Shown: piece after piece, positions 5-33,141 of the stretch
How positions within the stretch are numbered: the stretch's first letter is position 1
Layout: the number at the start of each line of letters is the position of its first letter
Assembly (NCBI GenBank): GCA_013820875.1
Contig: JACDHS010000054.1
Coordinates: 1 to 33,437, forward strand
Direction: 5' to 3'
DNA length: 33,437 bases
Origin: Verrucomicrobiota bacterium
GTDB taxonomy: Bacteria > Verrucomicrobiota > Verrucomicrobiia > Limisphaerales > JACDHS01
Program-made: the position numbers and the translations under genes
Notes under the pieces: generated by a model
What the model was told of the DNA's origin: nothing
Seen by the model: only the letters and a program-made list of their open reading frames with translations
Databases searched by the model: none

Positions 5-323
5 GTGGGCAACACAGTGTGCGGACGTCGTTCCTGGAGTTTTAAAGTGGACAACACACTGTGCGGACGTCGTTCCTGGAGTTTCAAAGTGGACAACACA
101 CTGTGCGGGCGTCGTTCCTGGAGTTTCAAAGTGGGCAACACACTGTGCGGACGTCGTTCCTGGAGTTTCAAAGTGGGCAACACACTGTGCGGACGTCATT
201 CCTGGAGTTTCAAAATGGACAACACAGTGTGCGGACGTCGTTCCTGGAGTTTTAAAGTGGGCAACACAGTGTGCGGACGTCGTTCCTGGAGTTTCAAAGT
301 GGACAACACACTGTGTTGTCCAC
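5..323. repeat. 42-bp tandem-repeat array A
   Basis: Seven full 42-bp units begin at 5, 47, 89, 131, 173, 215 and 257, and an eighth partial unit begins at 299. Units start GTGG(A/G)CAACACA and end CCTGGAGTTT(T/C)AAA. There are no spacers. Each unit holds the palindromic core CACA(C/G)TGTG, whose central base differs between units. The preceding bases GAAC differ from the internal junction AAA-GTGG but match the left edge of the second array at 30164, so position 5 is probably the true left end. The period is a multiple of three and the unit has no stop in several frames, so long open frames appear on both strands; these are most likely by-products. Confidence 0.97.
299..323. repeat. perfect palindrome closing array A
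   Basis: The last partial repeat is followed directly by its own reverse complement. The arms GTGGACAACACA and TGTGTTGTCCAC are 12 bp each around a single central C. The right side continues as CCACGTTC, the reverse complement of the array's first bases (GAACGTGG). Positions 1-21 and 308-328 are therefore inverted copies with one mismatch. Confidence 0.93.
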
Positions 324-383
324 GTTCCGGGAGACCAAAAGCGGAAAACCCCTTATTTTCCGACAATTTGCCCGGATGAAGCT
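319..383. repeat. conserved right flank of array A
   Basis: About 65 bp starting CCACGTTCCGGG and ending GAAGCT match the segment just after the second array (30604-30668) with only scattered substitutions and short indels. The central landmarks AACCCCTTATTTT and CGACAATTTG occur in both. The repeat units of the two arrays differ while this flank is shared, so it marks a common module boundary. A small hairpin follows at 393-407 (GCGTG, loop CGAAA, CACGC). Confidence 0.85.
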
Positions 384-741
384 CCCAGACCAGCGTGCGA
401 AACACGCGAAATCATATTTGACCCACTCCAAGACCGAGTCCTATGGAAAACGCAATTTCGCCGAGAGACTGGAGGAGAATTTGCAATTTCAAGCAAGCGT
501 TGCACGAAATACCGCCAAAAATCCGGAAAAATTATTCGATGTCAACACCCTCAGGCACAGCTACTTACGAGCGTGCAGAGCACCTGTTTCCGGCATTATT
601 TTGCTTCTTTGAAGTTTTATTGCAGCGCTGCATCATTCGTTCTATCAACGACTTACGACGGTTCGAGCCCCTCTTTTTGCCGGTTTTCTTTTTTTCAGCA
701 CCTCTTTTTTTGGGGTCAAAATAAAACTTTTTTTTGCAACG

Positions 742-869
742 AAACCCAATAAAGACGGGCCTCCAGAGGGCGGAGGAAATTTGTGGACAAATTTTCCCCT
801 TATGTGGCCGGTGTCGTTTATGTGAAAAAATACCCGATTCGATTAACGAGTCATTAAACGTCCGATAAA
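742..869. repeat. 128-bp block nearly identical in both modules
   Basis: This 128-bp segment, beginning AAACCCAATAAAGACGGG and ending GTCCGATAAA, matches 31941-32068 with one substitution, at the centre of CCTCC(A/G)GAGG. It is much more conserved than the leader before it and than the coding sequence after it. It contains the inverted repeat AATTTGT-GG-ACAAATT at 778-793 and the motif TTATGTG twice, at 801-807 and 818-824 (the second as TTTATGTG). The nature of the element (promoter, RNA or recombination site) is not known. Confidence 0.88.
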
Positions 870-875
870 ACGGAC
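860..875 (+). promoter_or_regulatory. conserved hairpin before the fn3 gene, copy A
   Basis: GTCCG and CGGAC pair around the loop ATAAAA. In the other module the same place (32059-32085) has GTCCGAT and ATCGGAC around a 13-nt loop. The stem is kept while the loop changes in length and sequence, which suggests that the structure matters. It lies about 75 nt before the chosen start codon. Confidence 0.65.
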
Positions 876-948
876 AAAAAACGGAGTGGGAATGGGCCGC
901 TTATGTGTCCTTTCCGCTGCGTCGCAGAAACAGAAACGGAGTAAAAGT

Positions 949-1860
949 ATGAGGAATACAATCAAAAGAACAATCGGGTTCCTGGCTGACCTCGGGAACA
1001 AAGCAATCGCCGGGATGACGTTGTACGTCGCACAACTCACCCTGCCTAACTCAGTCACGGCGAACCTGCCGGGCAGGCTGGACGCGATGACGGTGGCGGA
1101 TACCGACCACAAGGAGACGATCGTGCAGTTGAAAGCGCGCGGACTCGTCCTGTATGGGGCGAGGCAGTCGGCCACCGAATTCGTGCGGATCGTGCGCGAG
1201 TTGTTGAGGCCGCGTCTTGGTAAGAAGTATTCCCAGGCCTGGGATGCCACTGGGTTGACTGGTTCACTGGCAATCGGAGAAAAAGAAAACGACCTGTTGC
1301 GGGTGCTCTATTCGATGGCGGCCTACCTCACGAGCTATCCGATCGCGGACGCGGGTGCCAATGCCACGGCGTTGCGTGCCTCGGAATTGCATGATGCATT
1401 GGCCGCGGCCAGTGCGGCAGTGGTTCAGCAGAAGGATGCGGTGGACCAGGCGATGAAAAACCGGGATGCAAAAGCGAAGGCGCTGGAATCCGGGCTGCGG
1501 ATCCTGTTGAGCGAACTGCACAAGACATTAACGCCGCTGGATTCCCGTTGGTTGGCCTTTGGCTTCAAAAAACCAGGTGCAAGAGCGACTCCCGATATGC
1601 CGCTGAACCTCCTCGCGGTGTTGATCGGCACCAATGCCATCTCGATGAAGTGGGACCCGGCAGCGCGCGCGGAGTATTATCGTGTGTATAAGAAAGTGAT
1701 CGGTGTGGATGCCGATTTCGTCTCGGTCGGCAGTCCTGCTGACCTGGACTTCACGATCGAAGGGTTGCCCGGCAACTCGCAGGTGGAGGTTGTGGTCTCC
1801 GCTGTGAACAACGGTGGCGAGAGCGTTTGGACCAGTGCGGTCCTCGTTCAGACATTGTAA
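949..1860 (+). CDS. array-associated helical protein with C-terminal fn3-like domain, copy A
   Basis: A 303-aa protein. I start it at the ATG at 949, preceded by ACGGAG. Upstream of this ATG the same nucleotides are read in different frames in the two module copies, so an earlier start at 886 is not conserved. Residues 1-215 look largely helical, with an Ala/Lys-rich, coiled-coil-like stretch near 140-190. Residues about 222-303 resemble a fibronectin type III domain (NAISMKWDPAARAEYYRVYK, then GLPGNSQVEVVVSAVNNGGES). There is no clear signal peptide, transmembrane segment or catalytic motif. It differs from the copy at 32164 at about 21 of 303 residues with no gaps. Its constant position after a tandem-repeat array suggests a role linked to the array or its transcript, but that is inference. 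The function is unknown. Confidence 0.9.
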   Translation: MRNTIKRTIGFLADLGNKAIAGMTLYVAQLTLPNSVTANLPGRLDAMTVADTDHKETIVQLKARGLVLYGARQSATEFVRIVRELLRPRLGKKYSQAWDATGLTGSLAIGEKENDLLRVLYSMAAYLTSYPIADAGANATALRASELHDALAAASAAVVQQKDAVDQAMKNRDAKAKALESGLRILLSELHKTLTPLDSRWLAFGFKKPGARATPDMPLNLLAVLIGTNAISMKWDPAARAEYYRVYKKVIGVDADFVSVGSPADLDFTIEGLPGNSQVEVVVSAVNNGGESVWTSAVLVQTL

Positions 1861-1884
1861 GTTGGATGAAGGAGTTGAATGCAA

Positions 1885-1918
1885 AGCCGCCCGGATTATT
1901 CCGGGCGGCTCTTTTTTT
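1885..1918 (+). terminator. rho-independent terminator of fn3 gene A
   Basis: The stem AGCCGCCCGG/CCGGGCGGCT around loop ATTATT is followed by C and seven T. It starts 25 nt after the stop codon. The same stem, loop and T tract occur after the paralogous gene at 33108-33141. Confidence 0.95.
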
Positions 1919-14608: not shown

Positions 14609-14902
14609 ACGCGCCGACGCGGACCCTTTCACAAAAAAACAGGTCCAAATCAGCGCGTTTTGGAGGCCTTTTTAAAAAATAGGATCCGCGTCGCTCCGTT
14701 TTGGAGCCCTTTTTTAAAAATGGCCTCAAAACCGGCCGTCACGGACCCCTTTTTTGAAAAAGGGGCTCAGGAATCTCCGTCGCGAACCCTTTTTTAAAAA
14801 ATCGTTAACAAAACTTTCCGTAAAAAGGCCCTTTTAAAAAATAGGCCTCCAAAACGCTCTGATTTAGACCTGTTTTTTTGTAAAGGGCTTCGCGACGCGC
14901 CG
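14609..14902. repeat. large nested palindromic structure
   Basis: The outer arms, about 14609-14669 and 14842-14902, are imperfect inverted copies containing ACAAAAAAACAGGTC and GCGTTTTGGAGGCC. Between and at their inner edges are five short palindromes of the form CC-T5/6-N-A5-GG, near 14665-14683, 14706-14724, 14746-14765, 14786-14806 and 14827-14847, spaced about 40 bp. No credible gene overlaps it. The whole gap 14072-15130 otherwise holds the 14161-14353 repeat, the ileS upstream region and the terminator at 15066. Confidence 0.8.
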
Positions 14903-30163: not shown

Positions 30164-30604
30164 GTGGACTTGAGACCATCCAGGCCGTTTCCGGATGATC
30201 CTGAAGTGGGCTTGAGACCGTCCAGGCGGTTTCCGGATGATCCTGAAGTGGGCTTGAGACCATCCAGGCGGTTTTCGGATGATCCGAAAGTGGACTTGAG
30301 ACCGTCCAGGCGGTTTCCGGATGATCCGGAAGTGGGCTTGAGACCATCCAGGCGGTTTTCGGATGATCCGAAAGTGGACTTGAGACCGTCCAGACGGTTT
30401 CCGGATGATCCTGAAGTGGGCTTGAGACCGTCCAGGCGGTTTTCGGATGATCCGAAAGTGGGCTTGAGACCGTCCAGACGGTTTCCGGATGATCCTGAAA
30501 TGGACTTGAGACCATCCAGGCGGTTTTCGGATGATCCTGAAGTGGGCTTGAGACCATCCAGGCGGTTTCCGGATGATCCTGAAATGGGCTTGAGACCGTC
30601 CAGC
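30164..30604. repeat. 42-bp tandem-repeat array B
   Basis: Ten full 42-bp units begin at 30164 and every 42 bp to 30542; an eleventh, partial unit starts at 30584. Units read GTGG(G/A)CTTGAGACC(A/G)TCCAG, then (G/A)CGGTTT(T/C)CGGATGATCC. The period equals that of array A, but only about 20 of 42 positions agree in register, mostly at the GTGG(G/A)C start. Units contain the inverted repeat CCGTC-CA-GACGG (or near forms). From unit 2 to unit 10 GTTTCC and GTTTTC alternate strictly, a higher-order period of 84 bp. The left edge is CCCGGGAACGTGG and the right edge CCCACGTTCCGGG, inverted forms of each other. Long open frames on both strands follow from the period and are not taken as genes. Confidence 0.97.
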
Positions 30605-30668
30605 CCACGTTCCGGGCGACCTAAAGCGAAAAACCCCTTATTTTTCGACAATTTGTCCGGAAGAAGCT
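30604..30668. repeat. conserved right flank of array B
   Basis: CCCACGTTCCGGG to GAAGCT matches 319-383 after array A with scattered changes. Before it, the last partial unit shows TGGGCT (30585-30590) mirrored by AGCCCA (30602-30607), so this array also ends with an inverted copy of its unit start. Confidence 0.85.
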
Positions 30669-30713
30669 TTTGAACCTGCCGCGAAAATCAAATTCGAGAA
30701 ATTTATGGATGCC

Positions 30714-31575
30714 AAATAGCAACACGCACGTACCAGGCTTGGTGAAGATTTGCGGAAGGCAGAAATTAGGGTTTTCACACAGGAAAACCCCACCGATTAG
30801 TCGACGAACCGCTCCCGCGGTTACGCAAAACCCCAGCCTTTATTACCAATGGTAAGTCGGAGAGCTGTAGGCCTTGTTTCGGTGCGGAAGCACCTCCAAA
30901 ACCGGTGGGGTTTTCCTGTGTGAAAACCCTGACTTCTGCCTTCCGCAATTCCTCGTGAAGTTTGGTGTGTGCGTGTTTAGTTTTGAAATTTGTGGATGGC
31001 TATTGCTTTGAAATAGCAACACGCACGTACCAGGCTTGGTGAAGATTTGCGGAAGGCAGAAATCAGGGTTTTGGCTCAACAAAACCCCACCGGGTTTTTG
31101 GACGCTGGCGCGGAACGGACCGCGCCTTTGGATTACCTTGCGGTGGTTCGGAGGCGGGTGGCTTCGGGGCCGTGTTCCTGGAATTTCGTTGGAGCGGCTA
31201 CGTGTAAGTCCCAGCCTTTATTACCAATGGTAAGTCGGGGCGCGGTAGGCTGTGTTTCGGTGCGGAAGCACCTCCAAACACGGTGGGGTTTTCCTGTGTG
31301 AAAACCCTGACTTCTGCCTTCCGCAAATCCTCGTGAAGTTTGGTGTGTGCGTGTTTGGTTTTGAAATTTATGGATGCCAAATAGCAACACGCACGTACCA
31401 GGCTTGGTGAAGATTTGCGGAAGGCAGAAATCAGGGTTTTGGCTCAACAAAACCCCACCGGTTTTTTGGTCGCTGGCGCGGAACGGACCGCGCCTTTGGA
31501 TTACCTTGCGGTGGTTCGGAGGCGGGTGGCTTCGGGCCGTGTTCCTGGAATTTCGTTGGAGCGATAACGTGTAAG
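30714..31575. repeat. complex of direct and inverted repeats inserted in module B
   Basis: AAATAGCAACACGCACGTAC and the following 45 bp occur three times, at 30714, 31011 and 31379. The copies at 31011 and 31379 continue as near-identical direct repeats of about 195 bp. A second unit starting CCAGCCTTTATTACC occurs at 30833 and 31211 (about 160 bp). The segment near 30758-30802 (TTTGCGGAAGGCAG and on to AACCCCAC) is repeated in inverted orientation near 30903-30947 and again at 31281-31325. TTACC-AAT-GGTAA is a small palindrome inside. Module A has no counterpart: there only about 55 bp separate the array flank from the leader. No credible gene. Confidence 0.88.
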
Positions 31576-31940
31576 TGCCGAAAATTCACGGCTTTGCCTC
31601 ATCACGGTTTTGATTCGGGCGCATTCGTCTCCCAACTCCCTACGGAAAACGCAATTCCGCGGAGAAACTGGAGGAGGAATTGAACTTTTAAACCAGCGTT
31701 GCACGAAATACCGCCGAAAATCCGAAAAAATATTTCGTTGTCAACACTCTCAGGCTCAGCAGCTTACGACCGTGCAGAGCACCTGTTCCCGGTGTTATTT
31801 TGCTGCTTTAAAGTTTCGACACAGCGCTGCATCCCGCCTTCTATCAACGACTTACAACAGGTCGAACCCCCCTTTTTGCCGGTTTCCTTTTTTTCAACGC
31901 CTCTTTTTTTAGGGTCAAAATAAAACTTTTTTTTGCAACC

Positions 31941-32068
31941 AAACCCAATAAAGACGGGCCTCCGGAGGGCGGAGGAAATTTGTGGACAAATTTTCCCCTT
32001 ATGTGGCCGGTGTCGTTTATGTGAAAAAATACCCGATTCGATTAACGAGTCATTAAACGTCCGATAAA
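31941..32068. repeat. 128-bp block nearly identical to 742-869
   Basis: One substitution in 128 bp relative to the block in module A, while the leader 5' of it differs at roughly one base in five. Confidence 0.88.
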
Positions 32069-32085
32069 CACAAAAAACATCGGAC
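32059..32085 (+). promoter_or_regulatory. conserved hairpin before the fn3 gene, copy B
   Basis: GTCCGAT and ATCGGAC form a 7-bp stem around a 13-nt A-rich loop. Copy A (860-875) has a 5-bp version of the same stem with a 6-nt loop. The insertion falls in the loop and leaves the pairing intact. Confidence 0.65.
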
Positions 32086-32163
32086 AAAAACGGAGTGGAA
32101 AATGGGCCGCTTAAGTGTCCTTTCCGCTGCGTCGCAGAAACAGAAAAGAAACGGAGTAAAAGT

Positions 32164-33075
32164 ATGAGAAACATCATTACAAGGACAATCGGGTTCCTGG
32201 CTAATCTCGGGAACAAAGCAATCGCAGGGATGACGTTGTACGTCGCACAACTCACCCTGCCTAACTCAGTCACCGCGAACCTGCCGGGCAGGCTAAACGC
32301 GATGACGGTGGCGGATACCGACCACAAGGAGACGATCGTGCAGTTGAAAGCGCGCGGACTCGTCCTGTATGCAGCGAGGCAGTCGGCCACCGAATTCGTG
32401 CGGATCGTGCGCGAGTTGTTGAGGCCGCGTCTTGGCAAGAAGTATTCCCAGGCCTGGGATGCCACAGGGTTGACGGGTTCACTGACAATCGGAGAAACAG
32501 AAAACGACCTGTTGCGGATCCTCTATTCGATGGCGGCCTACCTCACGACCTATCCGATCGCGGATGCGGGCGCCAATGCAACGGCGTTACGCGCCTCGGA
32601 ATTGCATGAAGCGTTGGCCGCGGCCAGCGCGGCAGTGGTTCTGCAGAAGGATGTTGTGGACCAGGCCATGAAGGATCGGGATGAAAAAGCGAAGGCGCTG
32701 GAATACGGTCTGCGCATCTTGTTGAGCGAATTGCACAAGACGTTGACGCCGCTGGATTCCCGTTGGTTCGCGTTCGGTTTCAAGAAACCGGGCGCTCGTG
32801 CCACTCCAGATATGCCGCTCAACCTGAGAGCGGTGTTGATCGGCGCCAACGCCATCTCGATGAAGTGGGACCCGGCAGCGCGCGCGGAGTATTATCGTGT
32901 GTATAAGAAAGTGATCGGTGTGGATGCCGATTACGTGTCGGTCGGCACTCCTGCTGACCTGGACTTCACGATCGAAGGGTTGCCCGGCAACTCGCAGGTG
33001 GAGGTTGTGGTCTCCGCGGTGAACAATGGCGGCGAAAGCGTCTGGACCAGTGCGGTCCTCGTTGCGACATTGTAA
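32164..33075 (+). CDS. array-associated helical protein with C-terminal fn3-like domain, copy B
   Basis: A 303-aa protein of the same length as the copy at 949, with about 21 substitutions spread over the chain (for example D45N, G70A, S180Y, L223R, F257Y) and no gaps. The start is the ATG at 32164 after CGGAG; an open extension to 32095 reads in a different frame from the other copy and is rejected. The helical, Ala/Lys-rich N-terminal two thirds and the fn3-like end (about 222-303) are both kept, so both copies look intact and under selection. No export signal or catalytic motif is seen. It again follows an array with the same period. The function is unknown. Confidence 0.9.
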   Translation: MRNIITRTIGFLANLGNKAIAGMTLYVAQLTLPNSVTANLPGRLNAMTVADTDHKETIVQLKARGLVLYAARQSATEFVRIVRELLRPRLGKKYSQAWDATGLTGSLTIGETENDLLRILYSMAAYLTTYPIADAGANATALRASELHEALAAASAAVVLQKDVVDQAMKDRDEKAKALEYGLRILLSELHKTLTPLDSRWFAFGFKKPGARATPDMPLNLRAVLIGANAISMKWDPAARAEYYRVYKKVIGVDADYVSVGTPADLDFTIEGLPGNSQVEVVVSAVNNGGESVWTSAVLVATL

Positions 33076-33107
33076 GCTGATGTCGGTTTGAAGAAGTTGG
33101 AATGCAA

Positions 33108-33141
33108 AGCCGCCCGGATTATTCCGGGCGGCTCTTTTTTT
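33108..33141 (+). terminator. rho-independent terminator of fn3 gene B
   Basis: Identical stem AGCCGCCCGG/CCGGGCGGCT and loop ATTATT as at 1885-1918, followed by C and seven T; then AACCGCTAATCTTCGCTAAT, the start of the CGCTAAT-type repeat also found after module A. Confidence 0.95.

Follow-up and report, generated by a model that had tools for sequence, protein, structure and literature searches.

Tandem arrays of conserved period and variable sequence upstream of an FN3-domain gene family in Verrucomicrobiota

Among described systems, the type III toxin-antitoxin systems (ToxIN, CptIN, TenpIN) are one of the closest to the locus analyzed here. They are small mobile modules in which a tandem array lies directly upstream of one protein gene, and the 41–43 bp units of the arrays described below fall within the range of type III antitoxin repeats. 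Type III systems are defined by a ToxN-like endoribonuclease fold and a terminator between array and gene (PMC5086642). At our locus the array is similarly placed (52 of 70 homologues). However, the protein consists of a helical bundle and an FN3 domain instead of the endoribonuclease fold, the period of the array is fixed while its sequence is free, many arrays have no gene, and a terminator-like hairpin separates array and gene at only 4 of 26 loci. Membership in the type III class therefore fails: the position of the array agrees, but the ToxN fold is absent and the terminator is rare.

REP elements and BIMEs, associated with RAYT (TnpA_REP) proteins, are dyad-symmetric intergenic repeats that form many dispersed families per genome and sometimes occur in tandem, as do the arrays considered here. 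GTAG/CGTC tags are a feature of REP elements (PMC3733652). The arrays differ from these elements in their fixed period of 41–43 bp and in their linkage to an FN3 protein. The genome under study has seven matches to the Y1 transposase family PF01797, and the 1.5-kb flanks contain an array at one of these seven loci; an assignment to REP/RAYT was rejected. CRISPR arrays also consist of regular, short, partly palindromic repeats, but here there are no unique spacers and whole 41–43-bp units repeat. The abundance of gene-less copies only where gene copies are abundant is reminiscent of MITEs and other non-autonomous elements, except that the copies are tandem arrays of unrelated sequence with no single common terminal inverted repeat. 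Searches of the open-access literature found no description of period-conserved, sequence-free arrays tied to an FN3 protein. On these grounds we regard the array and protein as a putative system that is new in kind.

The stretch of DNA analyzed (the window) is a 33,437-nucleotide contig from a 5.7 Mb draft genome of a Verrucomicrobiota bacterium (G000). It holds the module twice in the same orientation, at 5–1918 (copy a) and 30164–33141 (copy b). A first-pass annotation had proposed this layout from the sequence, and it is borne out by TRF and by the sequence itself, with arrays, genes and terminators at the positions given in Table 1. Its figure of about 93 percent identity between the neighboring genes, both of 303 aa, also holds. 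DNA homology between the copies extends from approximately -509/-525 upstream to past the gene ends at 90% identity, and a separate 64-bp block at the right edge of the arrays is 91% identical. Flank, leader and gene align in BLAST comparisons of the two copies, whereas the units of array a and array b are unalignable. Module a starts at base 1 of the contig, and its left edge is an assembly break.

Several further elements occur in the window. The pair of 368-bp units accounts for 745 bp of extra sequence between array b and leader b that copy a lacks. These units have a GGTTTTCCTGTGTGAAAACC core and relatives near other arrays in G000 (L093, L103), and represent a separate MITE-like family. 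The decayed array is 86% identical over 290 bp to an array in L091. Directly after terminator a there is an inverted pair, AACCGCTAATCTTCGCTAATAAGCGCTAAT ... ATTAGCGTTTGTGGCGCAGATTAGCGGTT (1919–2056), the left half of which also follows terminator b.

The leader had been described as structured. It is conserved, but its folding energy does not bear out the description (z = -1.24), and a search for covariation in a ten-sequence alignment gave one pair with double changes; a riboswitch-like RNA was rejected on these results. No Rfam 15 family scores above its gathering threshold in array or leader, the only matches being tRNAs, and no terminator-like hairpin is found on the gene strand at 300–960 of the window. 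The short frame upstream of the gene (window 32080–32164) overlaps the ATG in copy b, whereas copy a and Verrucomicrobiaceae have it fused to the gene in frame. A conserved motif, ARFGQAFFGDGSRF or similar, opens this upstream part of the frame in many Verrucomicrobiaceae, and MPNWDEGTWDSGFWD does so in others. Loci L179–L189 have a conserved block (TTCGTCCTTTAT.ACATCGGAC..GTCCGGCGGGGGGAGG) at about -170 to -85 of the gene, where a Shine-Dalgarno-like GGAGG could pair with CCTTT; the pair with double changes in the ten-sequence alignment belongs to this block.

Table 1. Positions in the window of the parts of the two modules and of related repeats
Feature	Positions	Strand	Basis and remarks
Array a, 42-bp tandem array, 7.4 units	5–315	+	TRF; consensus GTGGACAACACACTGTGCGGACGTCGTTCCTGGAGTTTCAAA; left side cut by contig end
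Right terminal flank of array a (CCACGTTCCGGG...)	316–375	+	Common to array b and gene-less array elements
Leader a, common to copy b	440–948	+	Conserved; folding no better than shuffles
Gene a, 303 aa	949–1860	+	N-terminal helical bundle (two ~50-residue helices), C-terminal FN3 domain
Rho-independent terminator a (GCCGCCCGG-ATTATT-CCGGGCGGC and T run)	1883–1918	+	Read from sequence; identical in copy b
Third, decayed array of 41-bp period, without gene	14656–14841	.	TRF: 14703–14802, period 40
Array b, 42-bp tandem array, 10.5 units	30164–30603	+	TRF; consensus GTGGGCTTGAGACCGTCCAGGCGGTTTCCGGATGATCCTGAA
Right terminal flank of array b, matching the flank of array a	30604–30660	+	Sequence comparison
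MITE-like insert, two 368-bp units in tandem carrying long inverted repeats	30832–31576	.	TRF
Leader b, with short open frame MGRLSVLSAASQKQKRNGVKV	31639–32163	+	Stop of frame overlaps gene b ATG; homology to leader a
Gene b, 303 aa	32164–33075	+	93% identical to gene a
Terminator b	33106–33141	+	Read from sequence, alignment

Searches of Pfam, NCBIfam and PADLOC gave no family at cut-off for the 303-aa protein. Its AlphaFold2 model (pLDDT 94) consists of helices, including two of about 50 residues, followed by an FN3 domain, and Foldseek returned FN3 relatives only (E 2e-6, TM-score by target 0.79–0.85 against FN3 structures). An immunoglobulin-like FN3 fold is confirmed in this predicted structure. 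The C-terminus had earlier been called fn3-like, a label that Pfam alone leaves below its cut-off (PF00041, E 0.0005–0.006, below the gathering score) and that the predicted fold supports. Profile and structure searches recognized no nucleic-acid-binding domain.

At least 51 copies of the gene are present in G000 (own-genome search). A genome of another genus in the same family (G001) has at least 60, and an alignment search of apparently the same MAG gave 82. Elsewhere the gene family is patchy and usually present in one to six copies; long matches occur in about 27 of the 383 genomes sampled from the class, and there are homologues in Verrucomicrobiota MAGs of several classes as well as in one MAG labelled Armatimonadetes. 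Comparison of genes a and b gives dN 0.037 and dS 0.27 (dN/dS about 0.14). The ratio is 0.12 for gene a against L021 and 0.03–0.04 for the pairs L182/L183 and L179/L180. Gene copies are mostly intact, and the protein is under purifying selection. Broken or fragmentary copies on contigs C54, C130, C167, C159, C83 and C204 of G000 suggest module turnover.

A collagen-like gene adjoins the FN3 gene in 12 of 36 loci, mostly in Verrucomicrobiaceae (L179, L180, L181, L182, L183, L184, L187, L188, L189, L199, L200 and L204); the window has none. It lies 3' of the FN3 gene on the same strand, and its product (MPYDPNWPQNGQNIDADRFR...) has Gly-X-Y stretches and a C-terminal LNELINALRR. FN3 and Gly-X-Y proteins side by side, together with weak PHROG matches to tail proteins, recall phage-tail or surface fibre genes. 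However, collections of phage, plasmid and viral contig sequences yielded no homologue of the FN3 gene, which led us to reject a viral, plasmid or phage-cargo origin, and there are no recurrent tail-gene neighbors. The FN3 and collagen-like proteins resemble a fibre or surface system that may be unrelated to the mechanism of the array.

The association of array and gene extends beyond the window. For each distinct homologue in other genomes, the 1250 bp on either side were scanned for tandem repeats of period 20–70, with simple repeats left out. An upstream array was identified for 52 of 70 homologues, with a period of 41 (24 loci) or 42 (28 loci), while none of 67 homologues has a downstream array of period 41–43 (Fisher p ~1e-22, upstream versus downstream). 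Apart from two arrays of period 32, the scanned upstream regions contain no other tandem arrays. The distance from array end to gene start is 31–840 bp (median 231), and at 18 of the 70 genes no array is detectable. Three differently fetched locus sets agree on the linkage, and in G000 and G001 an array lies upstream of 17 of 42 genes and downstream of 0 of 51. The sequences of the units differ between loci, near relatives excepted. As controls we took about 750 kb of random stretches from genomes with few or no gene copies. They contain no arrays in G003 (100 kb), G013 (80 kb), G022 (80 kb) and G020 (62 kb), and one array in G017 (27 kb); the 400 kb taken from G331/G332 have one weak case and another that looks coding. 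A coding role of the arrays was rejected, as the common periods 41 and 43 are not multiples of three. Two gene copies in G000 (L047/L048) are 95% identical from -259 to +960 and have no adjoining array, having either lost it or never had one.

These results support the proposal of the first-pass annotation that array and protein belong together, with one qualification. It had reasoned that the link would fall if homologues were generally found without an array or arrays generally without the gene. Homologues mostly have the array, always upstream, and the two move jointly (see below); in G000, by contrast, most arrays have no gene, so that the second half of that reasoning does apply in this genome.

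Gene-less arrays form dispersed elements. The 617 kb of G000 that we scanned contain about 27 arrays, nearly all of period 41–43 (one or two simple repeats aside), against six genes, and genome-wide array numbers for G000 are extrapolated from these 617 kb. Eight gene-less arrays are present in 249 kb of G001. The arrays are intergenic, with no recurrent neighbor gene. Genome-wide, G000 contains about 24 relatives of array b, about 25 of array a, and at least 13 of a third type, nearly all gene-less. Most arrays in this genome lack the gene and belong to dispersed families of elements with copy numbers above 20. Many of its draft contigs end in such arrays, so the arrays evidently disturb assembly.

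Elements of the array-b type have a shared left flank that is cut at varied points and a fixed right end at ...AACTGCCGTTTTTAGG. The varied left ends and fixed right end of L302–L312 are reminiscent of 5' truncation in target-primed insertion. At L315, L317 and L324, a-type units lie between left and right flanks that are the same as those of array b, which extends to further loci the earlier observation that array units change within constant surroundings. The right flank common to arrays a and b, correctly noted as present at both copies, accordingly belongs to the dispersed array elements rather than to the gene module. The edges GAACGTGG/CCACGTTC, which the annotation had raised as a question for homologues in general, are specific to the array family of the window and not to the gene family.

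Comparison of modules in different surroundings indicates how much is transferred. The modules at L179, L180, L182 and L183 are 82–94% identical at the DNA level. L182 and L183 are 94% identical over 1.5 kb in different surroundings, with homology beginning at the outer edge of the array, and L022/L055 of G000 have the same left homology border, at the array start. In L179, L180 and L182, where the contig allows this to be seen, the homology ends with the collagen-like gene, at its stop codon. Exceptions are L060/L062 and L066/L069, whose homology runs beyond the array, and L180/L182, which have upstream DNA in common. Because homology between modules starts at the array's outer edge, the array is part of what is transferred with the gene or genes. 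A promoter region outside the array is not carried along regularly.

Over 84 distinct units, dyad symmetry across the whole unit far exceeds that of shuffles (z = 22.7). Purine autocorrelation has its peaks at lags 10 and 20–21, the helical repeat of DNA. Four helical turns correspond to 41–43 bp. Taken individually against their own shuffles, 27 of 62 gene-linked arrays have significant dyad symmetry, and the two arrays of the window are not among the strong ones.

Units also fold into hairpins at many loci. This raises the possibility, which we consider rather unlikely, that the array is transcribed towards the gene and that the resulting string of hairpins is bound or processed by the FN3 protein or regulates how this protein is expressed, much as in type III systems without being one. 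The constant position of the array upstream of the gene fits such a role. In addition, single changes at paired sites within arrays, read on the gene strand, favor G-U over A-C (400:287; 40 arrays versus 18, p = 0.005). The bias survives folding of either strand and removal of near relatives, and the unpaired-site control gives 252:262. This asymmetry, whose cells are not independent by descent, is a hint that favors an RNA role. However, the wobble asymmetry of array consensuses is not significant after correction for composition, folding z-scores are alike for sense and antisense (p = 0.32), terminator-like hairpins rarely separate array and gene, and transferred modules lack a conserved promoter region outside the array. 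Hairpins would need no period fixed at 41–43, and hundreds of arrays (by extrapolation) have no gene. A selfish array that serves as the end or recombination substrate of a mobile element and is moved by an unrelated enzyme of host or element, with the FN3 and collagen-like genes as cargo, is an unlikely reading as well, despite the array forming the left border of transferred modules and the existence of array-only elements with common flanks on both sides and more than 20 copies per family. The varied left cut and fixed right end of the array-b type and mixed combinations such as L315, with a-type units in b-type flanks, also agree with it. Outside the expanded family, however, arrays occur essentially only beside the FN3 gene, a proximity that a selfish element could do without; no transposase is linked (one of seven Y1_Tnp matches in the genome is near an array), and the fixed period is left unexplained.

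It is quite improbable that the arrays are cis-regulatory and govern downstream surface or fibre genes as repeated operators, insulators or anti-silencing sites, with no direct link to the protein. Their position upstream of the conserved leader, at a median of 231 bp from the gene, would suit this role, but one regulator would be expected to conserve a motif and the units have none in common, and gene-less arrays have no recurrent neighbor gene. An origin in chance or misassembly is suggested by the many contigs that end in arrays, and is refuted, with next to no probability left to it, by tens of independent assemblies that agree in placement and period, one contig among them being 2.7 Mb long.

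We tentatively favor, at somewhat less than an even chance, a mobile protein-array unit in which the array is recognized by spacing and symmetry and not by sequence. It is usually a low-copy chromosomal module comprising a 41–43-bp array and a gene for a helical-bundle and FN3 protein, to which many genomes add a collagen-like fibre gene. The array may work by geometry: with four helical turns to a unit and dyads approximately every two turns on one face of the DNA, it would offer a series of equivalent sites, most simply in duplex DNA, to the partner protein or to a host factor on which the usefulness or mobility of the module depends. Recognition by spacing would hold the period constant and leave the sequence free to drift by concerted evolution. 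Where there are dozens of gene copies, a product acting in trans could allow arrays to be copied and kept without the gene, in the manner of non-autonomous elements beside an autonomous one. Binding of the array by the protein is a prediction, made for a protein in which no nucleic-acid-binding domain is recognizable. Array-less genes (18 of 70), the limited share of arrays that are individually dyad-symmetric, the G-U bias, with its hint of RNA, and the fibre- or surface-like look of the FN3 and collagen-like proteins count against this geometric reading. The wider proposal, which we regard as possible but short of probable, is that Verrucomicrobiota possess an undescribed kind of protein-repeat system whose arrays are known by period and symmetry (four turns, dyads every two), evolve freely, move with the gene and, in some lineages, spread in trans.

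Tandem repeats are normally conserved for their sequence or coding content, whereas here the repeat length is kept across the phylum and the sequence is not. If confirmed, the proposed system would be a clear case of selection or mechanism acting on the geometry of a repeat, and it would explain a large class of dispersed minisatellites in Verrucomicrobiota. An uncharacterized FN3 family, which reaches about 80 copies in a genome, would likewise gain a testable function.
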